A DNA stretch of 64,000 nucleotides from Haloferax gibbonsii ATCC 33959 (GTDB taxonomy: Archaea; Halobacteriota; Halobacteria; Halobacteriales; Haloferacaceae): positions 10,938 through 74,937 of the forward strand of contig NZ_AOLJ01000018.1 in NCBI RefSeq assembly GCF_000336775.1, given 5' to 3'. The notes beneath the pieces are model-generated. The model saw nothing but the letters and a program-made list of their open reading frames with translations. It made no database searches and had not been told where the DNA came from. The position numbers and the translations under genes were made by a program. Shown piece after piece: positions 31,026 through 63,330 of this stretch (positions within the stretch are counted from its first letter, which is position 1; the number at the start of each line of letters is the position of its first letter).

Positions 31026-31874
31026 TCAATCGGAGCGGGTTCTCACCCAGAAACACAGCACGGCGGCGAGGAGCGAGCAGGCGGTGAGGAGTATCGACGG
31101 GCCGGGAACGGCCGTCTCAGTCGAGTCCGTCGAGCGCTCGGTGGTGGCTCGTGCGGTCTCGGCCTGTCCGTCCGTCGTTGCGCTCGCCGTCGATGACGAC
31201 GACGTCGCGGGCGAACTCGTGTTGTTCGCGTCCGTCCCGGAATCACCCATCGCCGAGACGGTCAACTCGCCACCTGTAGCGTCCGAGTCGGCATCGGAAC
31301 CGCCGCCGCCGTCTTGCGACGACGAACTGTCATCGGCCGTATCTGCGTCCGCGGTCGTCGTGGCGTTCGAACTCACCTCGCCGACGGCGAGACTCCCGTT
31401 CTCGACGGCGTCGATTCGGTAGCTGACACCCGCTTCGCTCCCGACGTCGGTCACGTTCACGCCGATTGGGGACGTCCCGTTCGCGCTGCCTTCGACGGTG
31501 ACGGTCGCGATAGTGACGGACCCCGACTGCGACGTGTCGATGAGCGCGCCGTAGAGGCGAACTCGCGAACGCCCGTCGTCGTACGTGACCTCGTTCAGGC
31601 CGGGGTCGGGAACGAACGACGCGTTAGCGACGGACGCAATCGAACCGTTGACGCGGACGGTCACGTCGACCGCGCCAACCCCGCCGCCGTCGAGGCCGCG
31701 GACCACGAGGTCGTAGGTCGTCGTCGACCCCACGTCCGTCTCTTGGGACGCCGGCGTCACGACGACCGAAACGTCGTCCTGCGCTGCCGCCACCCCCACG
31801 GGGGCGACGGCGAGGCTGGAGCTGACGAGCACAAGCAGTCCGAGCGGGACGACGAGAGCCTGTCGAGTCGACAT
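31026..31874 (-). CDS. Surface cohesin-like protein with PGPS-type C-terminal anchor
   Basis: 282 residues from ATG 31874 (upstream open frame is Arg-rich and excluded). Signal peptide (1-30), a cohesin-like beta domain (about 32-165: VGSTTTYDLVVRGLDGGG, then VTIATVTVEG), an acidic/Ser/Thr-rich stalk with glycosylation sites (about 175-250), and a C-terminal anchor VPGPSILLTACSLLAAV plus RTRSD. The end resembles PGF-CTERM in layout but has PGPS instead. Divergent from a dockerin-bearing subtilase, its likely partner. Confidence 0.85.
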   Translation of the reverse strand: MSTRQALVVPLGLLVLVSSSLAVAPVGVAAAQDDVSVVVTPASQETDVGSTTTYDLVVRGLDGGGVGAVDVTVRVNGSIASVANASFVPDPGLNEVTYDDGRSRVRLYGALIDTSQSGSVTIATVTVEGSANGTSPIGVNVTDVGSEAGVSYRIDAVENGSLAVGEVSSNATTTADADTADDSSSSQDGGGGSDADSDATGGELTVSAMGDSGTDANNTSSPATSSSSTASATTDGQAETARATTERSTDSTETAVPGPSILLTACSLLAAVLCFWVRTRSD

Positions 31875-31965
31875 TCGAATTCGGTATCGGCGTGTTGAGA
31901 GTCGGACTACTTTTCTGTTCCGGGACCGGCGGTGAGCGGGACGCTGGGGTGCAGCCGTCGGCACG

Positions 31966-31995
31966 TAGTGTAATGTGAATATGCCTGTTACACTA
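31966..31995. promoter_or_regulatory. Perfect 8-bp inverted repeat between cohesin and dockerin genes
   Basis: TAGTGTAA (31966-31973) and TTACACTA (31988-31995), separated by 14 bp, lie in the 242-bp divergent promoter region. The arm centres are about two helical turns apart, the geometry of a dimeric repressor site. It would be suited to co-regulating both genes. Confidence 0.55.
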
Positions 31996-32116
31996 GTCGG
32001 TCGACGAGTCGGTACGACCGATGGATGTTTTAGGCTTGTAGCCGGGATGGACACTACCTATCGAGTAAGATGCTCGCCGTCACAGCCGTGTTCCCACCCA
32101 GACGACTCTCGAAGAG

Positions 32117-34321
32117 ATGATTCGAACGCAACGAGGGACACGGGCCGTCGTCGTCGGCATCGTGTTCTGTCTCCTCCTGAGCGCGGCGCTCGCGCCGGTT
32201 TCGGAAGCGACGCTCCCCACAACTGACGTCGACTCAGGAGGACCCGAACGCAGTACGACCGCGGCGACCGTCACCGACCCCGCGAATAACACGACCGCAT
32301 CCGACAACGGAACGACCGGGAGCGACGTTCTCTCGGGCGTCGCGGCGTACCGACTATCGCGCGCGGAGTCGGACGAACTCGTCCCGGTAATCCTCGTCTT
32401 CGACGACCAGTCGCGCGAGTCACGCGACGGGGGCGGTCGCAACGACACGACGGCGCGCGCACAAATCAGAGCGACGACCAACCGGACGCAGTCCGACGTG
32501 CGCGAATTCCTCGACGCTCGGCGGGCGAACGGGACCGTTGCGGACGTGAAACCGTTCTGGACTCGAAACGCGCTCGCCGTCGAGGCGACGCCCGCTGTCG
32601 TGCGGACGCTCGGCGGGATGCCGAACGTGTCCGCGATTCACTACGACAGGCCGATTTACGCGACGGGGTCGGTCGCGCCGAGCGTCGCCGCGTATCTGGA
32701 CTCGCTGTCCGCGTACGGCGAGACGGTCCGACCGGACAGCGTTCAGCGCGCGACGAGCGGAACGGAGTCGTGGAGCGTCAAATCGGTCGGTGCCGACGAC
32801 GTACAGGCGCGCGGAATCACCGGTTCGGGCGCGAACGTCAGCGTCATCGACAGCGGCATCGACGACAGCCACCCGGCGCTCCGCGGGCAGGTCGTTCGGT
32901 GGCAGGACTTCGTCGGCGACTCGTCGGAGCCGTTCGACCCGTGGGGCCACGGCACGCACGTCGCGGGGACGGTCGCCGGTCGGGCGGACGCCAAGAAAGC
33001 AGTCGGTGTCGCACCCGGAGCGCAACTGTTCGGCGCGCGCGCCCTCAACGCCGACGGACAGGGCAGTATGTCGGACGTGATGGCGGCGATGGAGTGGAGC
33101 GCCGAGAACCACGCGGACGTGGTCTCCGCGAGTCTCGGTGCTAGTCCGTTCCCGCTCGAGTACCGCGGGGAACGGGGGGTCCGGCCGAACGAGACCGGAA
33201 CCGCGGACATCGAACTCTACGCGAACGGCTCCGGCGTGTACCAGACCAACGCGAAGTACGACGGGTTCAAACCGGCGTACGTCTACGTGCTCGTCGAACC
33301 GACGCGGGTCGGCGGCGAGCAGATACAGAGCGACGAGCGACGCGCCGAGGTCATGCGGAACCTCTCGGTGACGCTTCGAGACCCCGCGGGCGAAACCCCG
33401 CTCAGAGGCGTCGACGCGGGGTGGTGGTTCGCCGACGGGCGCGTGCCGGCACAAATCGCGTACCAGAGATTCACACCCCGGAACGGGACCGCAATCGAAA
33501 CCCCCGGGAACTGGTCGCTCGACGTCGAGAACGACCACCCCGAGTCGGTGTCGTATCGGTACCGAACGACGGCGTACTACCCGTCGAACGGGAGCGACCA
33601 GTTCTCTCGGTACGTCGACTCGCTCGTGACGACGACGGACACGGTCGCGGTTATCTCGGCCGGCAACGCCGGGTTGCTCGGGAATCGCTCCGTGGCGAGC
33701 CCCGGCGCTTCGGCGGGGGCGATTACCGTCGGTGCGTCACGGCAGACAGCGTCCGACGTGACCTCGTTTTCGAGCCGCGGCCCGGTCGGGTTCGGGGCTG
33801 ACCGGCGACCCGGCATCGACCTCATCGCCCCCGGTGAGAACGTCACGTCCGCGTACTCGACGTCACAGACCGACGAGGCCGAACCGTACGTCACGCGCGA
33901 CGGGACGTCGATGGCGGCCCCGCACGTGAGCGGCACGGTCGCGCTCCTTCTCGACGCGAACCCGAACGCGACTCGCGCCGACGTGACGCGGGTACTCCGG
34001 TCGACGGCGCGACCGCTCCCGCAGACAGCGCCGACCGTCGGCGCGGGAATGCTCGACACGCGGAGCGCGGTCAACGAAACGGCCGAGCTACCCCCCTCCG
34101 TGACGACCGAAACAACGCCACCGACCGACCCCGACGGTGACGGCCGCTACGAGGACGTCAACGGAGACGGCAACGTAACGCTCGCCGACGTGCAGACGCT
34201 GTTCGCCCACCGCGACGCCGGGACGGTCGAAGGCAGTCGGGAGGCGTTCGATTTCTCCGGGAACGGCCGCGTCAACGTCGCGGACGTACAGGCGCTGTTC
34301 GCAAAAATCCGAGAAAACTAG
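32117..34321 (+). CDS. Secreted subtilisin-like (S8) protease with dockerin
   Basis: 734 residues. Signal peptide (1-31), low-complexity linker, I9-like propeptide (about 85-185), then the peptidase with Asp245 (VIDSG), His278 (WGHGTHVAG), oxyanion Asn517 (SAGNAG) and Ser598 (GTSMAAPH). A long insertion between His and Asn carries strands and sequons. The C-terminus (about 672-734) is a type I dockerin with two calcium loops, DVNGDGNVTLAD and DFSGNGRVNVAD. It is an extracellular serine protease probably docked on a cohesin; the neighbour at 31026 is the obvious candidate. Confidence 0.94.
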   Translation: MIRTQRGTRAVVVGIVFCLLLSAALAPVSEATLPTTDVDSGGPERSTTAATVTDPANNTTASDNGTTGSDVLSGVAAYRLSRAESDELVPVILVFDDQSRESRDGGGRNDTTARAQIRATTNRTQSDVREFLDARRANGTVADVKPFWTRNALAVEATPAVVRTLGGMPNVSAIHYDRPIYATGSVAPSVAAYLDSLSAYGETVRPDSVQRATSGTESWSVKSVGADDVQARGITGSGANVSVIDSGIDDSHPALRGQVVRWQDFVGDSSEPFDPWGHGTHVAGTVAGRADAKKAVGVAPGAQLFGARALNADGQGSMSDVMAAMEWSAENHADVVSASLGASPFPLEYRGERGVRPNETGTADIELYANGSGVYQTNAKYDGFKPAYVYVLVEPTRVGGEQIQSDERRAEVMRNLSVTLRDPAGETPLRGVDAGWWFADGRVPAQIAYQRFTPRNGTAIETPGNWSLDVENDHPESVSYRYRTTAYYPSNGSDQFSRYVDSLVTTTDTVAVISAGNAGLLGNRSVASPGASAGAITVGASRQTASDVTSFSSRGPVGFGADRRPGIDLIAPGENVTSAYSTSQTDEAEPYVTRDGTSMAAPHVSGTVALLLDANPNATRADVTRVLRSTARPLPQTAPTVGAGMLDTRSAVNETAELPPSVTTETTPPTDPDGDGRYEDVNGDGNVTLADVQTLFAHRDAGTVEGSREAFDFSGNGRVNVADVQALFAKIREN

Positions 34322-34330
34322 CGGGGTCGG

Positions 34331-35356: not shown

Positions 35357-35462
35357 CGGCTATGGGTGCGACAAGGATTCACTAAAAGCGGTCGGTCTCA
35401 CCGACTGCCGTGTCCGCGACCTCGGCGGTCCAGGCGTGAGACGAACCCGCCAGAACCAGTTA

Positions 35463-35948: not shown

Positions 35949-36094
35949 ATGCTACTCACAAGACTACCCGCCTTCTTTAATCTGACCACGGCTCCGAAAC
36001 GGTCTGACTGTTGTCGGTTTGAATGAGTGTCAATACAGCCGGACGGTATTATTCAGGACTATGATTCTGAATAAATCCATGGGTGATACAGAAG

Positions 36095-36101
36095 TATTTT
36101 A
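36095..36101 (+). promoter_or_regulatory. TATA box of the 36126 operon
   Basis: TATTTTA centred about 28 bp before the ATG at 36126 predicts transcription from or next to the start codon, i.e. a leaderless mRNA. Confidence 0.55.
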
Positions 36102-36125
36102 TCGCTCCTATCAGATGAACATACC

Positions 36126-39100
36126 ATGAGGCCTACGACCAGCAACAGGACTAAACTCTTGAGTTTGGTTCTGACGGGGGTTGTGGTTCTATCGATGGTG
36201 GTAGGGCCCGTTAGCGCGAGCACCCTCGCCTCAGCAGACGCATCGGCCTCACTCAGCGGAGGGGGTTCCGCTCCGATCGACGGAGCAACGACACCCGCGG
36301 TGAGTGACGAGTTGAAAATAGACGCCGGAGAGAACGTCTCCGTGTGGCAGTATTCGCTGCTGACACTTCGGCCAAATAATCCAGCAGCGTCGAGTGAGTT
36401 TGTCACACTCGACGACGTCCCGTACATCAGCCACGAGATACGGAACACGAATATCTTCGTCGGGACGAGCGACCTGGAAACCAGTTTGGACAAAAATCGA
36501 ATCTACGTCTTCAACAAGACGGAGATCACCGCGACCTTCAATCCGGGGAAAGCCGGAAAGAGCAGCGTGGTCGACGGGGAGAAAGTCCAACTGGTCGCTG
36601 TCCGCCTGAAGGAGGGCGCGAAGCAACCGGGTGGTATCAGCGATATCGGCAAACTGCTCACCACGAGTAAGGACACGAACGCCGAAATCGTTCGCGAGTT
36701 CACGGGGGAGAGCGGAGAGCAGAACTTCAAATTCACCCCCGACGAATCCGGGCAGTACATCTTCGCGACGGTTCTCGTCGAGAACAGCACCGACCCGGGA
36801 CTGGTGCAGGGCTCCTCGGCCGGTAACCTCACCGCCGAAGGGAACGTGACGGTCGTCGGCTTCGACCACTTCCTCGTCCAGGACGGTCGGTCGACGGTGA
36901 CGCCACCGGAGGTTGCCGCGGTCGGCAACGACGTTGACGTCGACGTCGACGCGTCGAATCTGGAATCGGACGAGGTTTCGCACACGACGATTCTGCTGAA
37001 CGAGACGGTCCTCGGCGACCAACAGCAGACGATTCAGCTCAACGGGAGCGAAATCGAGGAGATTCAGTCGTCCATCGACCGAATCGAAGGGGCGACCGAC
37101 GTGAAGCCCGGAACGAACTTCGCCGGGAGCACGCTTCCCGCGAGCCGATACAACGGGAACACGAACATCGTCTCGCTGCTCTCGCGGTTAGCCGGTGAAG
37201 ACAGCGTGACCCAGACCGACGACACGGTCATCTACACGAGTATCAACGGGACCGTCGGCGGACCGCAGGAGACGGTCACGCTCCGCACGACGGAGAACTT
37301 CACGCCCGGCGAGTACTCGGTGGTTCACTTCGCGACCGCACAGAACGGGACGGCGACGCTGAGCAACAAAGCGAGCGTCGAACTCGTCGACGGCGTCCAG
37401 CTCAACATCGAGCCGAGCGCGGTCGAAATCCAGCAGGGCGACAGCGTCACGCTCAACGTGACTCGGGCAGACACCGGCGACCGCGTCGCTGGTGCGAACG
37501 TGACCTACAACGGCAAGACGTTCACGACCGATTCGAACGGTCAGGTGACGTTCACGCCCGTCGAGACCGGAACCGCGACGGCCACGAAAGACCCGTCTAA
37601 CGGAACCGCGTACATCTCGTCGAGCGTCGACCTGTACGTCATCACGCCGGAAATCGAACTCACCGGCTACAACGTCTCGTCGACGTCGGTGACGACGGAC
37701 GAGACGGTGACGGTCAACGCGACCGTCGAGAACACCGACTACTTCGGTGGGAACTTCACGGTCGACCTCAAGCGTGACGGCCAGACCGTCGAGTCGAAGA
37801 CGGTGTTCGTCAACGAAGGCGAGACCGTCGTCGAGCAGTTCGAACTGAGCTTCGACACGCCGGGCACGTACGACGTGACGGTCAACGACGCGACGCCGAC
37901 GGCCATCGAGGTCAGCGGCGTCCCGGACATCGTCTACTCGAACTTCACGGCCCCGAGCCAGGTTTCACCGGGTGAGACGACGGTCGTGAGTGCCGATGTC
38001 AGCAACAACGGAACCGGCGCTGGCGAGTACAACGCGTCGCTCGTCATCGACGGCCAGACCGTCGAGTGGATGAACGGGACGCTCGCGCCCGACGAGTCCA
38101 CGACGGTCACCTTCGAGAGGGACCTCGGTCCCGGCACGTACCAGATCGCGATCGACGGGCTTCCCGCTCAGACCGTGACTGTCGACAAGCCGGCGAACCT
38201 CGACTACTCGAACCTGCAGGTCAACGCGACCGAAATCGGACTCGAGGACGCGGTCAACGTGAGCGCGACGGTCACGAACACCGGCGACGTGTCGGACACG
38301 TTCACCGCGACGCTCTCGGTCGACGACGAAATCACGCAGACGAAGGCCGTGACCCTCGACGGCGGCGAATCGAAGACGGTCTCGTTCACCGTCACCGACC
38401 TCGCCCTCGGCGAGCACACGGTCCGCATCGGCGACCTCTCGCCCGAGACGGTCACCGTGAAAGCGCCGGACATCACGCCGACGCTCTCGGTCGAAACGAA
38501 CGTGACGAAAGGTATCGTGCCCGTCAACGCGACGGTCGAAAACCGCGGTAACGTCGAGGCGACGGGCGTCGACGTACTCGTCGAAGCGAAAGCCGACGGC
38601 GGTGGGGACTGGGAAGAACTCACCAGTCAGTCGGTCGACCTCGCTGCGGGCGAGTCGGTCGCTATCAACACGACGCTCGCACGCGTTGACGCGCGGAACT
38701 ACTCCGTTCGCGTCGTCGCGGACCCGGCTGACGAAATCGCCGAGGCGAGCGAGACGAACAACGAGGTCAACGCGCGCGTCACCGGCGGTCCGCTCGCGAA
38801 GGGCTACGTCAAGATGCCCGACGGGAGCGCCGCCGTGGACGACCTCGTCTACACGAGCCGCACGAACCCCGGCGACGAGTCGTGGTCCGTCGGACAGGCG
38901 TTCACCGACGAGAACGGTCGGTTCCTCGTGCCGGTCGTCAACGGAACCTCACAGACGATCGCGTACGTGCAGGACGAAGCGAGCGGTTGGAGCGGCGACC
39001 ACCCGCGCGACGGGTCGCCCGACATCTACTCGCTCTACACGACGAAAGGAACCGAGCGGATTCTGAACGTCGGGAACACGACGCTCCCCGACGCGGGTCT

Positions 39101-41735
39101 ACTGAACGTCACCGTCGTCGACCAAGACGGTGACCCCGTGGAGAACGCGACGATTGCGGTCACCCACAACAACGACGGCACCCGCTCGGGTGTCGCGTAC
39201 AAGTCCAACGCCGAGGGGCTCTTCCCGGCCGGTGAAGGCGACAAGACCGGCATCGAGGTCCGCGGCGACATGGAAGTCCGCGTCACGCCGCCCGAGAACG
39301 ACCGGTTCGTCAACCGGACGTACTGGCAGAACCTCACGGTCGACACGAGCGGTGCGAACCTCACCTTCCGCCTCGCGGAGGGTGCTGACCTCTCGCCCGA
39401 ACTCGACGTCGAACAGCGACAGCGGTTCAACGACGGCGTGAACGCCTCCGTGACCGTCTCGAACGACGGACTCGTCAACGTCTCGAACGCGACGGTCGAC
39501 CTGACTGTCGAGGCCGCCAACGGTGCCACGGAGACGTACACGAAGTACACCGGCAACCTCTCCGACAGCACCGACGCGCCGAACAACGAGACGACGCTCA
39601 CCTACGACCTGACGGAGTTCGCCAGCGAAGAACTCCTCGGAACCCTCGCACAGGGTAACGCGAAGGTGACCGCGACGGTCGATCCGGCGAACGAGATTCC
39701 CGAGACGGACGAGACGAACAACCAGGTCGTCAACTCCACGCGCGTGGTCTACGCCGACCCGGCAGTCCGCATCCAGGGACAGAGCACGGTGCTCCAGAGC
39801 CAGAAGGCGACGCTCGTCGTGTTCACGAAGAACAACGGTACCGCACCGACCGGTGAGTTCAACGTGACCGTCGACTACGACGACGGGACGACCGAGAACA
39901 TCACCATCGCGAACCTCGGCGTCCAACAGCCGAACACGACGCGCGTCACCCACAGCTTCGCGACGGGTGGCGACAAAGTCGTGACCGCGAGCGTCTCCGA
40001 CGGCGTCCCGTTCGACAACAACGAGTCGACGAAGGACGTCAGAGTGAAGCCGTACACGCTGAGCATCGACGACGAGGACGTCTCGGTGCCCTCGACGGTC
40101 GTGAACAACTCGACTGTCACCGTCATCGCCGAGTTCAACGCGAACTACCCGTCGGACGTCAACGCGACGGTTTCGCTCCCCGCGGGGCTCGAACTCGTCG
40201 ACGGACAGCGCGCTGAGAAACAGGTCCGGTCGTCGGCGAAGGGCGGTTCGGTTGCGTGGAAGGTCCGCGGCAACACGACCGCCGACATCGACGACGCGCA
40301 GCTCGACGTCACCGTCGAAGCGTTCGGCCAGAGCGACACGGCGTCCGCGACGACCAACGTCACGGTGCCGAAGGTCCGCTACACGACGACGAACGCGACG
40401 ACGCTCGAGTCCGCGGGCGAGACGCAGTCGCTCGCGCTCAACATCTCGGACGCGACGACCTACGAGCACACCCTCAACGTGACCGTGCAGGCCGGGACGG
40501 ACGGACGGACGCTACAGGGTCTCGAATACCTGTTCTCCTACCCCTACTGGTGTGTCGAACAGACGACGACCCAGATGATGTCCGCGCTCCGGACCGACCA
40601 GTACTACCGCGACGGCGACATCCCGAGCAACTACGACCGCGACCGCTCGAACAGCACGATCAGCGCGGGTATCAGCAAGCTTGCCGACGAGCCCACGCCT
40701 GGGGCGTACGTCAACATCTCCCAGCACGACAACGGCGCGTGGAGCATGTACGGCAACAACCCGCGCGGTGACCTGTTCTACACCATCTACGCCCTGCAGG
40801 GCGTGAGCGCCGTCTCCGACGACGCGGTGCAGAGCAGTCGTACGGACGTGAACAAGAGTCTGCAGAACATCAACCAGAGCGGTGCAGTCCTCTGGCTGGC
40901 AGACAAACAGCGCAACAACGGACGTGTCCGCCCGAGCGGGTACTTCCTCCGCGACGACACCTCCGCGACCGCCTACACGACGGTCGCAATCGACCGCGCT
41001 GGCGACGACCTCAACGCGACCGCACAGACGGCCGCCAACGAGTTCAGCGTCGACGCAGCGGTCTACCTCATCGAACAGCAGAACGGCGACGGTAGCTGGG
41101 AAGCCGGTTCGAAACAAGCGCAGGCAACCGCCTACGCGGTGCAGGCGCTCGCAGCGGTCAACGACAGCGACACCCTCCGGAACCAGGTCAACAGCGAGCT
41201 GAGTTCGGGTAACGTGTCGATGGCCCTCGACAGCGGTGTCCAGTGGCTCGCGGCGAACCAGCGGGAAGACGGTTCCTGGGCTGGTTACACGAACTCGCCG
41301 TACTGGAGCAACACCGGTGAGAAGGCCCGCGCGACGGGCAACGCGATCATCGCGTTGAACGCCGCGGAGGGCTACACGGCGGCGAGCAACGATACCGTCT
41401 CCGACGGTGTCGGCTACCTCGTCAGCATCTACCAGCAGGGTGGCTCCTTCGGTAACACGCGTGCGACCGGCGTCGCGATCGACGCCCTCACGACGGCGGA
41501 CCAGCGGAACGCCGGCTCGCAGACGGTGACGGTCGAAATCAACTCGACCGTCACGAAGGACGTCACCGTCGACGGTAACACGCCGACGGCCACGGTGTCC
41601 TTCACGACTGACGAGCTCGAAACGCTTCGTGAGACCGGTGATATCACCCTCACCATCGAGAACTCGACTCGAGTCGTTGTCGGTGCCGAGTCCGAACAGC
41701 TCGTCAACGAACAAGAGTACGAGGACACCAACTGA
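36126..41735 (+). CDS. Giant secreted CARDB/thioester (macroglobulin-like) protein
   Basis: 1869 residues. Signal peptide (about 11-32, VSA end). N-terminal beta region (about 60-480), then repeated CARDB-like Ig modules (about 515-900, e.g. VTVNATVENTDYFGGNFTVDL) and more at about 1110-1350, with DETNN-type loops. The C-terminal part (about 1440-1790) is a helical toroid with an alpha-2-macroglobulin-like thioester motif, YPYWCVEQTT (Cys1476, Gln1479), and repeats QQNGDGSWE and QREDGSWAG. In that family the Cys-Gln thioester covalently captures proteins or surfaces. A short beta end follows; there is no membrane anchor, so it is probably held by partners from the two genes downstream. Many N-glycosylation sequons. 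Confidence 0.9.
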   Translation: MRPTTSNRTKLLSLVLTGVVVLSMVVGPVSASTLASADASASLSGGGSAPIDGATTPAVSDELKIDAGENVSVWQYSLLTLRPNNPAASSEFVTLDDVPYISHEIRNTNIFVGTSDLETSLDKNRIYVFNKTEITATFNPGKAGKSSVVDGEKVQLVAVRLKEGAKQPGGISDIGKLLTTSKDTNAEIVREFTGESGEQNFKFTPDESGQYIFATVLVENSTDPGLVQGSSAGNLTAEGNVTVVGFDHFLVQDGRSTVTPPEVAAVGNDVDVDVDASNLESDEVSHTTILLNETVLGDQQQTIQLNGSEIEEIQSSIDRIEGATDVKPGTNFAGSTLPASRYNGNTNIVSLLSRLAGEDSVTQTDDTVIYTSINGTVGGPQETVTLRTTENFTPGEYSVVHFATAQNGTATLSNKASVELVDGVQLNIEPSAVEIQQGDSVTLNVTRADTGDRVAGANVTYNGKTFTTDSNGQVTFTPVETGTATATKDPSNGTAYISSSVDLYVITPEIELTGYNVSSTSVTTDETVTVNATVENTDYFGGNFTVDLKRDGQTVESKTVFVNEGETVVEQFELSFDTPGTYDVTVNDATPTAIEVSGVPDIVYSNFTAPSQVSPGETTVVSADVSNNGTGAGEYNASLVIDGQTVEWMNGTLAPDESTTVTFERDLGPGTYQIAIDGLPAQTVTVDKPANLDYSNLQVNATEIGLEDAVNVSATVTNTGDVSDTFTATLSVDDEITQTKAVTLDGGESKTVSFTVTDLALGEHTVRIGDLSPETVTVKAPDITPTLSVETNVTKGIVPVNATVENRGNVEATGVDVLVEAKADGGGDWEELTSQSVDLAAGESVAINTTLARVDARNYSVRVVADPADEIAEASETNNEVNARVTGGPLAKGYVKMPDGSAAVDDLVYTSRTNPGDESWSVGQAFTDENGRFLVPVVNGTSQTIAYVQDEASGWSGDHPRDGSPDIYSLYTTKGTERILNVGNTTLPDAGLLNVTVVDQDGDPVENATIAVTHNNDGTRSGVAYKSNAEGLFPAGEGDKTGIEVRGDMEVRVTPPENDRFVNRTYWQNLTVDTSGANLTFRLAEGADLSPELDVEQRQRFNDGVNASVTVSNDGLVNVSNATVDLTVEAANGATETYTKYTGNLSDSTDAPNNETTLTYDLTEFASEELLGTLAQGNAKVTATVDPANEIPETDETNNQVVNSTRVVYADPAVRIQGQSTVLQSQKATLVVFTKNNGTAPTGEFNVTVDYDDGTTENITIANLGVQQPNTTRVTHSFATGGDKVVTASVSDGVPFDNNESTKDVRVKPYTLSIDDEDVSVPSTVVNNSTVTVIAEFNANYPSDVNATVSLPAGLELVDGQRAEKQVRSSAKGGSVAWKVRGNTTADIDDAQLDVTVEAFGQSDTASATTNVTVPKVRYTTTNATTLESAGETQSLALNISDATTYEHTLNVTVQAGTDGRTLQGLEYLFSYPYWCVEQTTTQMMSALRTDQYYRDGDIPSNYDRDRSNSTISAGISKLADEPTPGAYVNISQHDNGAWSMYGNNPRGDLFYTIYALQGVSAVSDDAVQSSRTDVNKSLQNINQSGAVLWLADKQRNNGRVRPSGYFLRDDTSATAYTTVAIDRAGDDLNATAQTAANEFSVDAAVYLIEQQNGDGSWEAGSKQAQATAYAVQALAAVNDSDTLRNQVNSELSSGNVSMALDSGVQWLAANQREDGSWAGYTNSPYWSNTGEKARATGNAIIALNAAEGYTAASNDTVSDGVGYLVSIYQQGGSFGNTRATGVAIDALTTADQRNAGSQTVTVEINSTVTKDVTVDGNTPTATVSFTTDELETLRETGDITLTIENSTRVVVGAESEQLVNEQEYEDTN

Positions 41736-41743
41736 GGAGAACG

Positions 41744-42943: not shown

Positions 42944-42946
42944 CTC

Positions 42947-51885: not shown

Positions 51886-54850
51886 TGGTGATACTACCCT
51901 CTCCCTCGGGCGTCGGTATATGTCTATCCACTAAGAGTGCCGCGGGGTCCTGCAGCAACAGATAGCCCGTCGCGAGACACGCGCTCGCGACCGCGAGGCC
52001 GAGGCCCGCGAGCACCATCCCGGCGATGACGCCGGGCGAGAACGCCGGCGTGAGCGCCACGCCGAACACGCGGAGTTCGCCGACCGACAGAAGCGCCGTC
52101 ACGGCCGCGGTGGCGATGACGAAGGCGGCGGCCGAAGCGACGAGTCCGACTTTGAGCGTGTCGAAGAGGACGAGCCGGAGGATGTCGGTCCGGCGCGCCC
52201 CGGTCGCGCGGTACACGCCGATGGTCTTCCGAACGCCGTAGGTGCTCCGCGTGAACGCGGCGGTCGTGCTCCCGACGGTCATGAGGCTCACCAGCGCGAC
52301 GACCGCGGCGAGGAGCACTTCGAGGTTCCCGAAGACGAGCTGAATCGCCTGCGCGATGCCGCCGCCGCTCGTGTAGCGACCGCTCCCCGCGAGCGCGGTC
52401 GCCAACCGCTCGTCGCCGCGGACGCGATACGTGAGCGTGGCCGGTTCGCTCGCGCCGACCTGCGACGAGACGGTGTACTCTCCGGCCGGGCGCTGTGGGA
52501 GAGTCGCCGAGACGCGACGACTCCCGCCCGGTGCGAGCGAGACGGCCCGTTCGACGTCAGTCCCCGGACCCCGAATAGTCACGGTCGTGTTCAGTCGCTG
52601 TGTCCACGGGTTGGTGAGCCGCGCCGTCACCGTCGGCGACGTGAACAGCGTCGGCGTCTGCGGCGAGAGAGAGAGCGTCTGGACCGGCCGCCGAGTCGCG
52701 TCCTCGGAGACGGTCACCGTGGTGTTACGCTGTTGGGAGCCGGCACGCGCGGACACGACGTACGTCCCCGTCTCGTTGAACCGGACGCGGGCCGTCCCGC
52801 TCGCGTCCGTCGTTCGGCGCTGGCCATCGACCGAAACCGTCGCGTTCGCGACCGGCTCGCCGCCCCGCGAGACGCTGATTCGCGGCGCGCCCCCGACCGG
52901 TATCGACGCGGGAACGCTCACGCCGAGCGACTCGACGACGCGGCCTCGCTCGTCGACCGTCACCGACTTGGTCACGTCGGCCACGGAGAGAGAAACGGTC
53001 CCCGCAGGCGGCGTCTCGAACGCGACGAACGTCGTCTTCGACCGGCGACTGGGCACCGAGAGTGCGGTCTTCGCAGTCGCGTCCCCGAGCGTGACGGAGA
53101 CGGACCGGGAGGCGTCGCTCAGCCCGAGATTCGTGGCCTCGACGGCGACGCCGAAGCTCCCGTCTCGGCGCGTGACCGTCGCGTCCGTGACCACGATTGT
53201 CGACGCGTTCGCGTCTCCGCTGGCGAGGCCGCTGGTTCTGATGAACTGAACCCCGTCTCGCCCAGTCGTCGTGAGGTGGCGCGCCGTGTCCAGCGACACG
53301 AGGAGTTGGTCGTCTTGGACGCCGGTGCCCGCAAACCGGCCCACGATTTCGATTCGCGTGATGCCGGGCGTCGTGCTGCCCCCGAGAACGAGCGTGTCGC
53401 CGACACCGAGGCCGGTCGCCTCGGCGAGACTCGCCCCGATGAGCGCCTCGTCGTCTCCGGTCGGTTCCCGTCCCGTCGTCAGCGCCGTGTGCGCCAGCGA
53501 CTCGTACGCGGAGTAGTTCACCCCCCGCGCGACGAACGGCGTGTTTCGGTACACCTCGAAGAGGAGAATCTCCGGACTGACCGCGACGCCCTGACTGCGG
53601 AGCGCAGACGCGTACGATTCCGGGACGTTACTCGCGATGGGATGGGGTGCGTCCGGCTCCGTAATCGTCTGTTGGCCGACGCCCGAAAGCGGGCCGACCG
53701 CGCCGATAACGGCCGACAGCAACAGCACCACGCCCATGAACACGCTCAGCGTTGCGACGGTGGGGACGGTCGCCTCCCACCCGAGCAATCGCGTCTCGAA
53801 GAGTCCTGCGAGCGGCGACCGCGACTGGTCGTCGGCGGACTGACCCGACGACGACAGTCGGTCCAGCGGTTTCGTCGCCTCTGGGTACGACGCTGTCAGG
53901 CCGGCGACGACGCCGGCGACGAGCAGCACGGCGGTCGCCAGTCCGAGCAGTTGGATGACCGGCGGCGTAAGTGCGAGCGCAAGGGAGGTCGGGAGGCCGG
54001 CGTAAACCGCCGCGTTCAGGACCGCACGGACGAGGATGACGCCGATGCTGTATCCGAGCGCCAGTCCGACGGCCGCGAGCGTGATGGCGCGGAGCGTGTA
54101 CACGCCGACGATTTGCCGCGGCGTCGCGCCCGTCGAGCGGAGCACGGCGATGTCCGGGCGTCGCTCCTTGACCGTGAGTCGGATGACGCTGTACGTCGTC
54201 ACCCCGACGAGAATGCCGCTCGCGAGCGTCGCGAGTTGGAGCAGGCGGACCAGTTGGTCGGTCCCGCGGACGAAAAACTGGAGCGCCGACAACAGCGGCG
54301 TCGCCGGTGCGCCGTCCGTCCGTTCGATGGTGACCACCTCGGTCGCCTCGAACGCTGAAACCGTCTCGGCACGGGTGAGATACCAGCCGTCTCGGAGGAC
54401 CTGATGGCCGGAGCGGTCCGTAACCGTGACCGACGTCGCCGTCTCGTCCGTTGCGAGCGAGACGGTCTCGCCGGCGGGCGGTCCGCCGACGACGGCGAGC
54501 GTTCCGGGGTCCGGACGGGGGAAGTCGATTGTTTGCCCCCGGACGGTGAGTTCCGAGACGCCCGGCGGGACGCCGACAACCGTCGCGGGCGTCCCGTCGA
54601 CGGTCGCCCCAACGAGGACGAGTCGGACGTCGGAGTCGGACCCGCTCGCGTCCGCGACGCTCGACGGGGAGTCAACGCGCTCGACGTGATAGCTCGTCCC
54701 GAACTCGTCGGAGATGGTCGTCGTCTGCTGGCCGAGCGAGACGCCGAGAATGGCGGCACCGACGAGAAAAGAGACGGTGAGGGCGATGACGAGCACGGCG
54801 AGTGTGTCGCGCGTCTCCCAACTGAACGAAAGCGCTCGACGGTAGCCCAT
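51878..54850 (-). CDS. Large FtsX-type ABC permease (1)
   Basis: 990 residues, same plan as the second permease: N-terminal helix and domain (about 10-190), FtsX core (about 195-320, KERRPDIAVLRSTGATPRQI), helix near 370-395, long extracytoplasmic region (about 400-850) with Ig-like modules (VAVEATNLGLSDASRSVSV; TTDASGTARVRFNETGTYVV), and a second core (about 855-975, TYGVRKTIGVYRATGARRTDIL). The two permeases share GATGA-type coupling segments and are paralogues, so a heterodimer is likely. First gene of the operon. Confidence 0.9.
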   Translation of the reverse strand: MGYRRALSFSWETRDTLAVLVIALTVSFLVGAAILGVSLGQQTTTISDEFGTSYHVERVDSPSSVADASGSDSDVRLVLVGATVDGTPATVVGVPPGVSELTVRGQTIDFPRPDPGTLAVVGGPPAGETVSLATDETATSVTVTDRSGHQVLRDGWYLTRAETVSAFEATEVVTIERTDGAPATPLLSALQFFVRGTDQLVRLLQLATLASGILVGVTTYSVIRLTVKERRPDIAVLRSTGATPRQIVGVYTLRAITLAAVGLALGYSIGVILVRAVLNAAVYAGLPTSLALALTPPVIQLLGLATAVLLVAGVVAGLTASYPEATKPLDRLSSSGQSADDQSRSPLAGLFETRLLGWEATVPTVATLSVFMGVVLLLSAVIGAVGPLSGVGQQTITEPDAPHPIASNVPESYASALRSQGVAVSPEILLFEVYRNTPFVARGVNYSAYESLAHTALTTGREPTGDDEALIGASLAEATGLGVGDTLVLGGSTTPGITRIEIVGRFAGTGVQDDQLLVSLDTARHLTTTGRDGVQFIRTSGLASGDANASTIVVTDATVTRRDGSFGVAVEATNLGLSDASRSVSVTLGDATAKTALSVPSRRSKTTFVAFETPPAGTVSLSVADVTKSVTVDERGRVVESLGVSVPASIPVGGAPRISVSRGGEPVANATVSVDGQRRTTDASGTARVRFNETGTYVVSARAGSQQRNTTVTVSEDATRRPVQTLSLSPQTPTLFTSPTVTARLTNPWTQRLNTTVTIRGPGTDVERAVSLAPGGSRRVSATLPQRPAGEYTVSSQVGASEPATLTYRVRGDERLATALAGSGRYTSGGGIAQAIQLVFGNLEVLLAAVVALVSLMTVGSTTAAFTRSTYGVRKTIGVYRATGARRTDILRLVLFDTLKVGLVASAAAFVIATAAVTALLSVGELRVFGVALTPAFSPGVIAGMVLAGLGLAVASACLATGYLLLQDPAALLVDRHIPTPEGEGSITNE

Positions 54851-55029: not shown

Positions 55030-56010
55030 TTAGTTAGCCCGCAGACGCGCCGCACCGATGAGCGCAACCAGCGAGACGAGCGCCGGCAACACGCCGAACC
55101 CTGGCGCTTGGCTCTCCGTCTCCGTCGGCGTCTCGGTCGTCACCGGGTCGGAGGTCGTGGTCGGCTCGGCGACCGTGATCGTCGCCGATTCGCCCCCGAC
55201 AGAGAGGTTGTACGTCCCCGCCTGCTGGAACGCCGGGAGGAACACGACCGTCGATTCGTTGCCGGGTTCGAGGTCGGTGACGGTCTTGGTCGACTCAATC
55301 GACCCATCGACCGTGAGATTGACCGTCGCGTTCGTCGTCACGTCCCCGTCGTTCAGGACGGTCGCCGTGGCTTCGACGCTCTCGCCGGTTTCGACGTCGG
55401 TCGTCGCGACTGAGAGGTTGGTGACGGTCGTCGACGCCGTGTCGCCGTCGCCGCCGCCGGAGTCACCGCCACCATCGCTATCGTCTCCATCGTCACCGGA
55501 GCCACCGCCGCCGCCAGACGAGGAGGTCGTTATCTCGAGTTGTGCGGACCGCTCATCGCCGATGCTGTAGTCGTTACCGTCCTCGTCGCCCAGCGCGTTG
55601 ACCTCGGGCGTGACCATGGTTTCGGCCGTGCTCGTCGCGTTCCCTTCGACCGTGACGGTGGCGACGACCACGTGGCCGGTCTGGTTCGTATCGAGCCCGT
55701 AGCCGGTGAGCATCGCGGAGCTGTTGTCACTCGCGTACGTCGTGTTGACCTCCGCCGCCTCGTGGCTGAACGCGACCTGCGTGATAGCCGCAGTATCGTT
55801 CGCGACCGAGAACGAGATATTGGCCGCGCCGACGCCGCCCGAGGCGTTCGTCACGACCACGTCGAACGTCGCCGCCTCGCCGTTCGTAACCGTCTGACCC
55901 GTCGGTTCGAGTGCGACGTCCGTCGACCCGGCCGCGGCGCTCACCCCTGGCGCGACAGCGAGCGCGAAAACCAGAAGCAGAAGGTAGCCGTGGCGCGCGT
56001 TCAGTTTCAT
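55030..56010 (-). CDS. PGF-CTERM surface protein, cohesin-like plus CARDB
   Basis: 326 residues. Signal peptide (1-26), cohesin-like domain (about 28-160: NGEAATFDVVVTNASGGVGA, HVVVATVTVEGN, ALGDEDGNDYSIGDE), Gly/Asp linker (about 163-190), CARDB-like module (about 192-285: VTNLSVATTDVETGESVEA), short stalk and anchor APGFGVLPALVSLVALIG with RLRAN. No dockerin gene adjoins it, so it may host dockerins encoded elsewhere, such as those at 32117 or 59971. Confidence 0.9.
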   Translation of the reverse strand: MKLNARHGYLLLLVFALAVAPGVSAAAGSTDVALEPTGQTVTNGEAATFDVVVTNASGGVGAANISFSVANDTAAITQVAFSHEAAEVNTTYASDNSSAMLTGYGLDTNQTGHVVVATVTVEGNATSTAETMVTPEVNALGDEDGNDYSIGDERSAQLEITTSSSGGGGGSGDDGDDSDGGGDSGGGDGDTASTTVTNLSVATTDVETGESVEATATVLNDGDVTTNATVNLTVDGSIESTKTVTDLEPGNESTVVFLPAFQQAGTYNLSVGGESATITVAEPTTTSDPVTTETPTETESQAPGFGVLPALVSLVALIGAARLRAN

Positions 56011-57722: not shown

Positions 57723-57745
57723 GGCGGGAGATTCATGTGGGCCGT

Positions 57746-58141: not shown

Positions 58142-58418
58142 CGTTTCACTAACGCACGGTTTACGATATAATTCTTTCGACGTTTCGGAGATACGCTATT
58201 GAAATGTAGCTATATAGTGGTATTGTCGGGTTGATTGTTCACTTTCTATTCCACTCTCTTTCGAACTGGTCGGAGCGGTACCGACGAGACAGGAGCCGAG
58301 GCAGTCCGAGGCGAGGCTCGACGGAGCGTTTGACTCGCGTCCGAGTCGTCGGCGTCGCCACTCGTCGAGCCTCGCGTCGGTCAGCACGTCCCGGTCGTCG
58401 AGCCTCCCGCTCGGGGCG

Positions 58419-59024: not shown

Positions 59025-59087
59025 ACCTCCCTGCTAGACGCCCACACGGATAAAGATTCGACACGGGCCCTGAGAGCCCGCGTTCGC

Positions 59088-59978
59088 TCAGTCCTCGCGT
59101 CGCGCCCGGCGTCCGAACCCGAACAGGAACGCCGCGATGGCTGCGACCGCGGGAGCGACGCCGAAACCGGGCACGCCGGTCGCCGTGGTCCGGCGCTCGG
59201 TCGTGGTCTCGGTCGCGGTTGCAGACTGCGTGGTCGCCTGCGGAGTCGTCTCAGCGCCGTCAGTCGCCGTCGGACTCGCGGTCGACGCGGGTGGCGCGGG
59301 TGACTGCGACGCCGACTCGGTCGTCGCGGGCTGGTCGGTCGCGTCGTCCGACTCGTCGTCCGCGTCGGAGTCGCCGTCCGACCCGGAGTCCGGACCATCG
59401 CCGTCGTCACCACCGTCGTTCGGGTCGTCGTCACCACCGCTCCCGCCACCACCACTCCCGCCACCGCCGGACGACTCCGAGACCGAGAGGTCGAGTCCCG
59501 ACGTATCGGTGACGGTGTAGGAGTTCCCGTCCTCGTCGCCGAGAGCGGACACGGACACGTCGAGCGCGCCGTCGCCGGTGGCGTCGGCGGTCTCGACGGT
59601 GACGGTCGCGACGGCCACCGAACCAGCGTCGTCGGTGTCGAGGCCGATGACGCCAATCGACGCGGCCGTGCGACGCTCGTCGTACGACACGTCCCGCAGC
59701 CGCGGGTCGGTGCCGTCGGGCGTTGCGACCTCGGTGATGCGACCGACCGACGCGTCGTCGAGTTCGACCGTCAGGTTGTACGCGCCGACGCCGGCGTCGG
59801 CGCTGTCGACGACGATATCGAACGTCCGCGTCGAGTCGGGTTCGACGGTCGCCGCGTCGGCGTCGAAGCCGACGGTCGTGTCGGTCGCGGCGACCACGGG
59901 CGGCGCGACGGCGCTCAGACAGACGAGCGCCGCGAGCACCGCGAGCGCGGCTCGGTCGGGCAGCTTCGTCTTACGCAT
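59088..59978 (-). CDS. PGF-CTERM surface protein with cohesin-like domain
   Basis: 296 residues. Signal peptide (about 1-30), cohesin-like domain (about 31-165: DSTRTFDIVVDSADAGVGAY, SVAVATVTVETAD, ALGDEDGNSYTVTD), Gly/Asp-rich linker (170-225), Thr/Ser-rich stalk and anchor VPGFGVAPAVAAIAAFLFGF with RRARRED. The start overlaps the stop of the nucleotidase-like gene by eight bases, so the two are coupled. It is a likely surface tether for the dockerin on its neighbour. Confidence 0.92.
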   Translation of the reverse strand: MRKTKLPDRAALAVLAALVCLSAVAPPVVAATDTTVGFDADAATVEPDSTRTFDIVVDSADAGVGAYNLTVELDDASVGRITEVATPDGTDPRLRDVSYDERRTAASIGVIGLDTDDAGSVAVATVTVETADATGDGALDVSVSALGDEDGNSYTVTDTSGLDLSVSESSGGGGSGGGGSGGDDDPNDGGDDGDGPDSGSDGDSDADDESDDATDQPATTESASQSPAPPASTASPTATDGAETTPQATTQSATATETTTERRTTATGVPGFGVAPAVAAIAAFLFGFGRRARRED

Positions 59979-62900
59979 CCGTGGAGGCGAACAGCCGCTG
60001 TACGTCGCCCACGTCGACGCGACCGTCGTCGTTGAGGTCGAACGCGGGGATGCTCGACTGGACCGGCTCGGCGTCGCGGTTCACGAACAGCGCCTGCGCG
60101 TCTACGATGTCCACGCTGCCGTCGCCGTTTACGTCCTCGAAGGTGCCGTCGCCGTCGTGGTCGGCCATCGCGCGGCCGTTGCCGGTGAGATCGCCGGGTT
60201 CGACGGTGACGGGTCGGTTGTCGATGTGCGACACCGCGTAGGCCGTGCCGTCGGGGTCGTAGGTCGCGGCGGGCGTCAGTTCGAGCGCCGTCGAATCGCC
60301 GAGCGCGACGCCTTCGACCGTCACGGTCGCGAGGACCTGCGAGCCGTTCGCGTCAGTCTCGGCGTCGATACCGGCGGCCTCGATGCGGACCTCACTGCCG
60401 TCGCCGCTGACGTTGACGGCCGAGGTTCCGGGTTCGTCGGGGAACTGGACGCCCGTGATGCGGGCGACGCTCGAATCGCCGACCGCGAGGGTCAGTTCGT
60501 ACGCGCCGACGCCGTCGGCGGCGTCGCTCGCGGTGATGTCGAACGTTCGGGTGTCGCCGAGGGGGACCGACTGGCCGTCCGAGCCGACCGAGAGTGCGAC
60601 GCCGTCGGCCGGTTCAGGCGTCGGGTCGGGCGTCGTCGCCTCGCCGTCGAGGTCGGCGTTCAGCACCGCCGAATCGAAGTTCTCGTACTGGCTCGAATAC
60701 GCGCTGTCGGTGTAGTCGACGTAGAGGTCGACGCCCGCCCCCGCCGCAGTCACCGACGACCCGAAGGCGTCGAGGTCGCTCGTCGGCACGGTGGCCGTGA
60801 CGGTGCCGCTCGCGCCGTCGTAGGCGACGTTCGTCGTCTCGACGTAGCCGCCGCTTCGGTCGGCGAAGGCGGCGGTTCCGCTCACGCCGGTCACGCGCGA
60901 GGGCGCGTCGATGGTGACCGTCGTCCGGCCGTCGTCGCTCGTCACGTCGACCGCGTCGGCGTCGACCGCCGCGTCGACCCGGCGCATCCGGTCGTCGGAC
61001 TCGGTGTCGACCTCGGCGGCTGCGATGGTCGAGCGGTTCTGGAGGTAGCCGATGACCCCGTCGGCCATCGTCGTCTCGTTGTAGACCGACACGCGCGGTT
61101 TGTCGCCGAGCGGGTAGCCGCTGCCGCCGTCGGCGATGTAGGAGTTGGTCGCGAGCGTGTAGGTCGCCGAGTCGTTGACGGGTTCGCCGTCCACCGTCAG
61201 GTCGCGAATCGTCGCGTCGCCCTCGCCGGGCGACGAGCTATCGGTGTGGGGCACCCACTCGAAGGTGACGCCGCTGACCTGCTGTTGGGTCTGGGTGCCG
61301 TACTGGTTGTCCATCTCCAGCGGCGTGATCTGGCTCTTGACGACCTCGCGGAGTTCCGCGCCGGTCACCTCGACCACAACGATATGGTTGCCGAACGAGA
61401 GCGTCGAGGTCACCATCCCGCGGGTGATGTCGAACTCCTCGCCCGCGCCGTACTCGCTCGGGTAGAGCGTGTCGCGGATGCCGCCGGCGTTCGTGACGGC
61501 CACGTCTGCGCCGGTGTAACCACGGACGCCGTCGGTGACGAGGTGACCCGTCGCGGAGTCGTCGGTGTAACTGGAGCCGACGCCCGTGTGCTCGGGCATG
61601 ACCGCCGTCGCGAGCTTCGTGTTGAGATAGTCCTCGCGGAGCGGGTTGATGTACGTCTGCCAGGAGTCGTTGCGCGGGATATCGGTCGTCACGTCGACGA
61701 GTTCGCCGGAGGCGTCGGTGACGCTCCCGTTGTCGACGGTCAGTTCCATCGTCATGACGGCGTTGGCCTTGCCGGTGGTCTCGCCGATGAGGACGCCGTT
61801 GGTCGTCTGCGGCGGGTAGCGCTGTTGGTCGTCGCCGGAGACGAGCGCGTCGATGCCGTCGACGTTCCGCGCGAGGTCCTTCGAGTCCGGGATGCCGACC
61901 GGGGCCAGCGCGACGACCACGTCAACGTCCTCCTCGTTTCGGAGCGTGTCGACGGTCCGCTGGGCGGCGGTCGTCGGGTCGACGACGGTGTAGCCGTTGC
62001 GCTCGATGACGCCGTCGGTCTTGGCGTTGATGGCCTCGTCGGTCAGGCCGAAGAAGCCGACTTTCACGCCGCCGCGCTCGACGACGGTGTAGTTCTGCGT
62101 CCCGGGGAGGTTCTCGCCGGTCTCCTCGTCGACGACGTTGGCGAGGAGCCACGGGTAGGTCGACTCGTTGGCGATGGCCTCGAAGACGGCGAAGTCGTTC
62201 GTCCCCGCGTCCTCGTCGTAGTCGAGTTCGTGGTTCTGGACGACCTCGGCGTCGGGGTCGATGAGGTTCATCGCCGTCACCGGCGGCTCGTAGCCGTGTT
62301 CCAGGCCGTCGTAGTTGCGGAGGGCGTGGGGGCTGAGTTCGTCGCCGCCGCCGGCCACGAAGACGGGACCGGAGGCGTTCGCGCGCTCGCGGTTGATGAG
62401 CGTAATCATCCGGCCGAGTTTGTCGTCGCCGGAGCCGGCGGCCGCCTTGCCGATGTCGTTGAAGCCGACGAGCGTGAGCGTCGTCGCGTTCGCGCCCGCA
62501 GTGTCGTTGCCGGCGTCGCCGCCGTCACCGCCGTCGTCGCCCGCGGGAGCGGTCAGGTTCGTCACCGACGCGGGCTGAATCTTGTACTCCTCGAAGCTGT
62601 AGAACACCGGCCCTTCGACGGCGTCGGCGGTACTGCCGACCTCGCCGGGCGTGGTGTCGTCGCCGGTCGTCGCGTCGTCGATGGCGACCGGCCCGGAGCC
62701 GTCGGTGACCGCCCACTCACCGTACTGGCCGGGGGTTTCCGTGACCTCGACGTCGCGCACGCTGACGAGAACGCCCTCGTAGGCCTCTCGGGAGACGTTC
62801 GCCGTCGCGAGCGCGGTCGCCTCGGGAACCGACCCGGTGTCGGTCGTCGACAGCGAGGCGCTGTCGTTCGCGAGGTCGAGCTGGGTCATCCCGAAGTACT

Positions 62901-63330
62901 CGGAGACGGGCGCGTCGACGCGCACCTCGTCGCCGGGGGTCGCGTTCGACGACCCGCCCGCGTAGACGTAGACGCCGCTGTGGCGCACGTCGGCCGCGGA
63001 GGCGTTCTGCAGGAAGAAGCCGTCGGCGTTCGTCGCCGTCACCGTCCCGGTGACGCTGACGAACTGCCCCGCGTAGGCGGAGGCGTCGCCGCCGGTCGTG
63101 TTCGACTGGAGTTCGGTGATGGTCACGGCCGTCGGCGCGGACGCGTTCATCGCCGATTGAGCGGTCGAATCGAGTGCGCTCGCGTCCTCCCCAGCCGCGA
63201 CGCCCGCCGCACCGGCGGGGAACGTCGCGGTCGTGAGTACTAACACCAGTAGCACCGTTACAGTACGACTGAGAACTGTCTGTGATGGTGTGTGCGGAGG
63301 CACATCAGTCCGCACCGGGGCGGGTGTCAT
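59971..63330 (-). CDS. Secreted 5'-nucleotidase-like protein with cohesin and dockerin
   Basis: 1119 residues. Signal peptide (about 18-47), an OB-like region (about 66-250: FVSVTGTVTATNADGFFLQN), a calcineurin-like metallophosphatase domain (about 290-540), a 5'-nucleotidase C-terminal domain (about 560-770: GIRDTLYPSEYGAGEEFDIT), a beta module, a cohesin-like domain (about 905-1045) and a dockerin (about 1055-1119, loops DVNGDGSVDIVD and DLNDDGRVDVGD). Several metal ligands differ from the canonical enzyme: GFNDIG for HTNDxHG, LAPVG for SHxG, GDDQ for GHSH; GGGDELS and QNHELDY are kept. Catalysis is therefore uncertain. A TATATAA element sits at 63348-63355. Confidence 0.92.
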   Translation of the reverse strand: MTPAPVRTDVPPHTPSQTVLSRTVTVLLVLVLTTATFPAGAAGVAAGEDASALDSTAQSAMNASAPTAVTITELQSNTTGGDASAYAGQFVSVTGTVTATNADGFFLQNASAADVRHSGVYVYAGGSSNATPGDEVRVDAPVSEYFGMTQLDLANDSASLSTTDTGSVPEATALATANVSREAYEGVLVSVRDVEVTETPGQYGEWAVTDGSGPVAIDDATTGDDTTPGEVGSTADAVEGPVFYSFEEYKIQPASVTNLTAPAGDDGGDGGDAGNDTAGANATTLTLVGFNDIGKAAAGSGDDKLGRMITLINRERANASGPVFVAGGGDELSPHALRNYDGLEHGYEPPVTAMNLIDPDAEVVQNHELDYDEDAGTNDFAVFEAIANESTYPWLLANVVDEETGENLPGTQNYTVVERGGVKVGFFGLTDEAINAKTDGVIERNGYTVVDPTTAAQRTVDTLRNEEDVDVVVALAPVGIPDSKDLARNVDGIDALVSGDDQQRYPPQTTNGVLIGETTGKANAVMTMELTVDNGSVTDASGELVDVTTDIPRNDSWQTYINPLREDYLNTKLATAVMPEHTGVGSSYTDDSATGHLVTDGVRGYTGADVAVTNAGGIRDTLYPSEYGAGEEFDITRGMVTSTLSFGNHIVVVEVTGAELREVVKSQITPLEMDNQYGTQTQQQVSGVTFEWVPHTDSSSPGEGDATIRDLTVDGEPVNDSATYTLATNSYIADGGSGYPLGDKPRVSVYNETTMADGVIGYLQNRSTIAAAEVDTESDDRMRRVDAAVDADAVDVTSDDGRTTVTIDAPSRVTGVSGTAAFADRSGGYVETTNVAYDGASGTVTATVPTSDLDAFGSSVTAAGAGVDLYVDYTDSAYSSQYENFDSAVLNADLDGEATTPDPTPEPADGVALSVGSDGQSVPLGDTRTFDITASDAADGVGAYELTLAVGDSSVARITGVQFPDEPGTSAVNVSGDGSEVRIEAAGIDAETDANGSQVLATVTVEGVALGDSTALELTPAATYDPDGTAYAVSHIDNRPVTVEPGDLTGNGRAMADHDGDGTFEDVNGDGSVDIVDAQALFVNRDAEPVQSSIPAFDLNDDGRVDVGDVQRLFASTDA

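Follow-up and report, generated by a model that had tools for sequence, protein, structure and literature searches.

A predicted cohesin-dockerin surface display locus in Haloferax gibbonsii and related gene sets in other haloarchaea

Introduction

Among known systems, the bacterial cellulosome is one of those closest to the locus described here; in clostridia, two-faced dockerin binding is known and the type-I dockerins of a cell show pooled specificity. A survey published in 2010 found no cellulosome components in archaea. That cohesin and dockerin modules are known in archaea, as the original prediction for the present locus held, is borne out by Archaeoglobus and by the scaffold-like proteins of ANME archaea, which carry up to five cohesins plus a dockerin (PMC9012536, 2022), in a paper that describes no haloarchaeal system. 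Haloarchaeal dockerins have been reported singly: the dockerin of a GH26 enzyme of N. mannanivorans was read as substrate-binding (Sorokin et al. 2024, PMC10963439), a reading repeated for the dockerin of a GAG lyase (PMC13260240), and a Halobacterium subtilase with a dockerin is also on record (PMC2605481). No description of a haloarchaeal cohesin-dockerin system was found in the open-access literature, subscription papers such as Peer et al. 2009 not being covered.

Results

The window, that is, the whole stretch of DNA analysed, comprises 64,000 nt of Haloferax gibbonsii ATCC 33959 (NZ_AOLJ01000018.1, GCF_000336775.1) and forms part of a 311-kb contig, here C18, of a 4.06-Mb genome. Open reading frame and domain searches recovered all five cohesin-like and all three dockerin stretches that had been predicted from the sequence, each at its predicted position, and every protein named in the locus corresponds to a real open reading frame with an export signal. 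The dockerins and cohesins of the genome fall into two sequence dialects, and the genes of the locus, in window positions, are as follows.

31026-31874, minus strand: cohesin anchor A, with a signal peptide, a dialect-2 cohesin (31383-31772), a Ser/Thr-rich stalk and a C-terminal transmembrane (TM) segment
32117-34321, plus strand: subtilase (S8) with a C-terminal dialect-2 dockerin (34127-34303)
36126-41735, plus strand: secreted thioester protein of 1869 aa, with CARDB repeats and a C-terminal A2M/complement-type TED domain (40443-41732)
41744-42943, plus strand: adaptor protein with a C-terminal dialect-1 dockerin (about 42764-42925) of two EF-type loops
42947-44188, plus strand: cohesin anchor B, with a dialect-1 cohesin (43040-43441), a PGF_pre_PGF domain and a PGF-CTERM (44114-44185)
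55030-56010, minus strand: cohesin anchor C, with a dialect-2 cohesin (55531-55923), CARDB and a PGF-CTERM-like tail
59088-59978, minus strand: cohesin anchor D, with a dialect-2 cohesin (59481-59879), a stalk and a PGF-CTERM
59971-63330, minus strand: 5'-nucleotidase relative with a C-terminal dialect-2 cohesin (60202-60600) and dockerin (59986-60162)

The gene at 31026 is present as predicted, although its listed reading frame (31026-32054) probably starts at 31874 instead, giving 282 aa, because orthologues in related Haloferax loci begin at that Met. Two large open reading frames, at 25623 and 28097, were rejected as system genes, being mostly Arg/Pro-rich frame shadow. Cohesin anchor C has as neighbours two FtsX-like permeases (46482-49475 and 51878-54850, both minus strand) that are related to each other and contain large extracellular insertions, with CARDB and PEGA in the first.

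In total the genome encodes six dockerins and seven cohesins, every one of them on the single 311-kb contig. Random placement of seven units all on 7.7% of the genome has a p of about 2e-7, and chance clustering is thus unlikely. Dialect 2 comprises four dockerins and five cohesins, the dockerins being carried by the subtilase, the nucleotidase relative, a GLUG-repeat protein (C18:105 kb) and a large cohesin-dockerin protein (C18:270 kb), with two of the four lying outside the window. The system extends past the window, and it is limited neither to this locus nor to the genus. No near DNA match to the contig was found in PLSDB; a Halarchaeum plasmid encodes a 40%-identical protein spanning nucleotidase, cohesin and dockerin, beside a protein labelled 'hypothetical', and a plasmid origin of the contig is neither shown nor excluded.

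With the Pfam cohesin profile (PF00963, cut-off 24.1 bits) only the 42947 protein was detected among the five, at 24.2 bits with its neighbours, and none of the four dialect-2 cohesins (31026, 55030, 59088 and 59971), searched singly, passed the cut-off. These four constitute one separate family (profile E-values of 2e-39 to 1e-43) in which the GVGA and ATVTVE blocks are invariant. Searched against PDB sequences, by profile or as single sequences, the cohesins gave weak matches or none, the single-sequence searches with the 42947 domain returning no PDB relative, so that the fold was settled by structure and not by sequence alone. The AlphaFold2 model of the 59971 cohesin-dockerin tandem (pLDDT 92.6, pTM 0.85) had, as its best 50 Foldseek matches in the PDB, exclusively cohesins or scaffoldin chains that contain them (best E 1.8e-9), and the model of the 42947 domain (pLDDT 74.7, from a thin alignment of eight rows) had cohesins as its best 25 (best E 1.2e-5); Archaeoglobus 2xdh was among the best matches of both. 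The fold has been modelled for one member of each dialect, and the domains of 31026, 55030 and 59088 are assigned by sequence family only. The five cohesin-like proteins of the original prediction are upheld in this way, 42947 by Pfam and the others by their shared family, and the outcome that would have refuted it, namely an unrelated Ig fold, was not obtained, as both modelled domains match solved cohesins first.

All three dockerin proteins exceeded the cut-off of the Dockerin_1 profile (PF00404, 22.9 bits), at residues 678-728 of the 32117 protein (29.1 bits), 341-385 of the 41744 protein (47.7 bits) and 1065-1113 of the 59971 protein (24.6 bits). The alignment of the repeats, together with helices predicted at 167-176 and 199-209, indicates that the EF-type calcium loop is duplicated, with helices after the two copies. 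Their description as two-loop dockerins was correct for the EF-type loops and incomplete for dialect 2, where a third acidic loop (DxDGDGxxED) stands before them within the signature DxDGDGx[YF]EDVNGDG...DxQxLF. The repeats co-vary at EF positions 11, 14 and 18 in 32 related sequences, which may fit two-faced binding and is suggestive only.

It had also been proposed that three of the cohesin proteins end in PGF-CTERM anchors. At the profile cut-off of 24.5 bits this applies to 42947; 55030 scores below it (17.4 bits) and, like 59088, was assigned by eye, and the tail of anchor A is a PGP variant of PGF-CTERM. ArtA is encoded in the genome (C11:10796). A further 93 loci of relatives, sought by dockerin alignment, were read with the same profiles, and in these a terminal TM segment was present in 0 of 127 dockerin proteins as against 40 of 53 cohesin-only proteins. 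Some multi-cohesin relatives have no TM anchor. The two-cohesin scaffolds of three loci (L066, L067 and L068) have none, and a repeated TREEIAxxxYG...YNRQPF segment forms their C-terminal end. No Pfam dockerin or cohesin match was obtained in control searches of Haloferax volcanii, a species that has ArtA.

The thioester protein, the adaptor and anchor B form a trio operon (36126-44188). The first has no anchor of its own and carries a CVEQ motif (40551-40562) that is invariant in five thioester-protein sequences, and a paralogue with 37% identity scores 46.2 bits with TED_complement (PF07678), enough to pass. This trio recurs about 205 kb away (C18:252-261 kb) at about 40% identity, and the trio proteins of Haloferax prahovense are 95-98% identical to those of the window. 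In five Haloferax loci (L180, L181, L182, L184 and L185) homologues of the thioester protein N-terminus and of the PGF_pre_PGF/PGF-CTERM end of anchor B are fused, an independent sign that these parts act together; a link of the thioester protein to the dockerin adaptor remains putative, resting on operon and fusion evidence only. Peptides CLLYTS / LSLIHIS and MCIRDS, which we take to come from a sequencing-library adaptor (Nextera mosaic end), occur at a join with an N within the second thioester gene (L010:4957-5462, C18 about 254.9-255.5 kb) and at the start of the H. prahovense contig (L075:1-40). The split of this second gene looks like an assembly artefact.

Among the dialect-2 genes, the subtilase is divergent from the gene of anchor A and has intact triad motifs (DSG 245, HGTHVAG 278 and GTSMA 596). 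Anchor C has no adjoining dockerin gene in the H. gibbonsii genome, and in two related loci (L078 and L081) a cohesin-dockerin gene adjoins its orthologue. The gene of anchor D overlaps the preceding gene, at 59971, by 8 bp. The 59971 protein had been called nucleotidase-like; it is indeed a UshA-family relative that keeps the C-terminal substrate-binding domain (106.5 bits), but the metallophosphatase ligands are lost, the metal-binding His being replaced in NDIG (for NDxH), ALAPVG (for SHxG) and SGDDQQ (for GHxH). They are absent from all Haloferax orthologues read, one of which keeps a single His at the GHxH position. Judged from these motifs, the protein is probably not an active phosphatase; with the metal-binding His lost and the substrate domain kept, it more likely binds nucleotide, which would make it a pseudo-enzyme or nucleotide receptor.

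Across the family (148 genomes sampled) cohesins were found in 63 genomes, dockerins in 63 and both in 51 (Fisher odds 26). For the class, 292 genomes gave both in 119, dockerin alone in 8 and cohesin alone in 6, such that 119 of the 127 dockerin-bearing genomes also have the cohesin family; copy numbers correlate (rho 0.76), and each component occurs in 43 of 77 genera. Co-occurrence across haloarchaea, a check set out with the original prediction, is thus very strong, and the parts recur in about two fifths of the haloarchaeal genomes sampled. These counts arise partly from cohesin and dockerin within one protein, and related genomes are not independent. The first of these limits does not affect the count of neighbouring genes, in which 44 of 60 loci have a separate cohesin gene at a distance of up to 500 bp; in 35 genomes, 46 dockerins are followed by a cohesin that starts no more than 400 bp downstream. 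The commonest unit in relatives is a cargo-cohesin-dockerin gene followed closely by a cohesin-TM gene. Tiered loci were observed in Halobellus rarus, where a dockerin cargo precedes a cohesin-cohesin-dockerin gene and an anchored cohesin, and in Haloarcula pellucida, where a dockerin cargo is followed by two cohesin-cohesin-dockerin genes and then by a three-cohesin gene. There are also scaffolds that combine two to five cohesins with a single dockerin or lack a dockerin altogether. In four other loci (L131, L139, L148 and L150) large proteins with a dockerin near the N-terminus are divergent from an anchored cohesin gene, and TSP3 repeats were present in the two of these proteins that were scanned.

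Cargo other than glycan hydrolases had been predicted. This is true of the H. gibbonsii genome, in which no glycoside hydrolase was seen among the six dockerin proteins and only single cohesins, with no multi-cohesin scaffoldin, were found, but does not hold for other haloarchaea. Elsewhere the cargo includes PhoX, PhoD, purple acid phosphatases, peptidases, penicillin amidase, oxidases, 3-keto-disaccharide hydrolases and malectin proteins, and in four genomes (G154, G194, G217 and G243) dockerins are carried by GH5 cellulases, GH10 xylanases and GH43 proteins. There are 22 dockerins in G154. In G194 a PKD protein with three cohesins is encoded amid GH5/GH10 dockerin genes, and in G217 five or more cohesins stand in tandem on a GH5 protein that is cut by the contig end. 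Taken together, these three genomes have GH5/GH10/GH43 dockerin enzymes with Tat-like signals, scaffolds in which the cohesins number from three to five or more, and an anchored cohesin at the membrane. At the level of individual loci, GH5/GH10/GH43 proteins with C-terminal dockerins lie beside multi-cohesin scaffolds in seven (L202 and L204-L209), and the 815-aa three-cohesin PKD protein of L209 equals a 'Dockerin/PKD family' protein listed in a Natronoglomus GH cluster (PMC10963439) in length, the only property compared. The 2.6-Mb metagenome-assembled genome Halobacteriales QS_4_69_34 (G148) encodes 34 dockerins and 5 cohesins, with PhoD, purple acid phosphatase, penicillin amidase, X-Pro peptidase and GMC oxidoreductase among its cargo.

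Discussion

The cohesin-dockerin display layout that had been predicted is supported by the cohesin folds, the pairing of genes, their co-occurrence and the asymmetry of anchors, all of which were observed, and we consider it quite probable that secreted dockerin proteins dock on archaeosortase-anchored cohesins at the haloarchaeal cell surface, the binding itself being inferred in the absence of binding data. Cohesin proteins would be exported and, through processing of their archaeosortase A-type tails (by ArtA, as we infer), would become lipid-anchored with the cohesin held out on a stalk. The subtilase, the nucleotidase relative and the thioester adaptor would be secreted unanchored, each dockerin folding as it binds calcium, a dependence which is likewise inferred, and plugging into a cohesin. 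The two dialects are presumed to keep two assemblies apart. In the inferred pairing, the dialect-1 dockerin of the adaptor would, in each of the two paralogous operons, take anchor B and hold the thioester protein, and in dialect 2 the protease, the nucleotidase relative and two further proteins of the contig would take anchors A, C and D. The 59971 dockerin may occupy the neighbouring anchor and the 59971 cohesin receive a further dockerin; since this protein has both domains, short chains could, by inference, grow outward. Several observations weigh against the docking explanation: anchor C lacks an adjoining dockerin gene in this genome, eight genomes of the class yielded dockerins without a cohesin, some relatives with several cohesins have no TM anchor, and a comparison of distance trees did not favour the neighbouring cohesin over the protein's own.

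Provided that docking takes place, there is a real possibility, though not one we favour, that any dialect-2 dockerin takes any dialect-2 cohesin and that gene neighbourhood reflects co-regulation or co-transfer; this would refine the docking explanation and does not exclude it. Within a genome the DxQxLF helix motif is shared by the dialect-2 dockerins, half of those in H. gibbonsii are encoded outside the window, and clostridial type-I dockerins are generally known to behave likewise, but cargo and scaffold dockerins of a single tiered locus differ (DAQALF twice as against DVQ.LF/LY), and gene neighbours are strongly conserved. It appears unlikely that in proteins with both domains the cohesin and dockerin bind within one chain and only stabilise the C-terminus, without display of a partner. 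The linker of the 59971 tandem is about 13 residues long, the tandem is predicted as one well-defined unit (pTM 0.85), and a comparison of distance matrices, which did not decide the matter, placed the dockerins a little closer in pattern to the cohesin of the same protein than to the one downstream. Against this, the subtilase and the adaptor have a dockerin without a cohesin and four cohesin proteins of the window have no dockerin, a separate cohesin gene is adjacent in most loci (44/60), and scaffolds of two to five cohesins have one dockerin or none. That the 'dockerins' of haloarchaea serve, stabilised by calcium, to bind substrate or as spacers, a reading given by Sorokin et al. (2024, PMC10963439) and repeated in PMC13260240, and that the cohesin-like domains are generic Ig modules, as the failure of single-sequence searches to find a PDB relative of the 42947 domain would allow, is highly improbable given that the modelled domains match cohesins before other Ig folds, that 119/127 dockerin genomes have the cohesin family, that terminal TM segments are so unevenly divided (0/127 versus 40/53), and that neither paper mentions a cohesin.

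Docking thus remains the preferred reading, and we lean, with less assurance, towards the wider view that haloarchaea as a class build multi-tier surface cohesin-dockerin complexes including true archaeal cellulosomes, with the window representing a version specialised for a protease, a nucleotide-binding pseudo-enzyme and thioester proteins; the GH5-type genomes (G154, G194 and G217) hold candidate archaeal cellulosomes. Were this class-wide view true, the published haloarchaeal dockerins would be docking and not substrate-binding domains. Should docking be confirmed, cellulosome-type modular surface assembly would be common in salt-saturated, single-membrane archaea, with a cargo extending beyond glycan hydrolases to proteases, phosphatase relatives, oxidases and thioester proteins. 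It would also give a function to many proteins now termed 'hypothetical' or read as substrate binders, link archaeosortase anchoring to enzyme display, and provide a source of docking pairs that work in molar salt.

Several known systems resemble parts of this one. The thioester protein shares with alpha-2-macroglobulin and complement proteins a C-terminal TED domain with CxEQ, whereas the haloarchaeal N-termini are CARDB-rich or contain PKD/propeller domains and are followed by dockerin adaptor and cohesin anchor genes. The haloarchaeal dockerin enzymes already described likewise have type I dockerins on secreted enzymes, a subtilase included; however, these dockerins were read as substrate-binding or left unassigned, and PMC10963439 and PMC13260240 give them no cohesin partner. 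The cohesin and dockerin of Archaeoglobus fulgidus (2xdh) are also archaeal and non-cellulosomal, but are not known to form an anchored, tiered set of several genes (literature per PMC9012536), and the ANME system belongs to methanotrophs in which the common cargo is ABC-transporter binding proteins (PMC9012536). Compared with the bacterial cellulosome of Clostridium/Acetivibrio and Ruminococcus flavefaciens, the window differs in its cargo (a protease, a nucleotidase relative and a thioester adaptor), in single-cohesin anchors, in PGF-CTERM/TM attachment instead of SLH or sortase, in the extra acidic loop of the dockerin and in cohesins that mostly fall below Pfam detection. Alike are the cohesin fold, the C-terminal type-I dockerins on secreted proteins and the anchoring cohesins, to which relatives of the locus add adaptor scaffolds of cohesins plus a dockerin and dockerins on some GH5, GH10 and GH43 enzymes.
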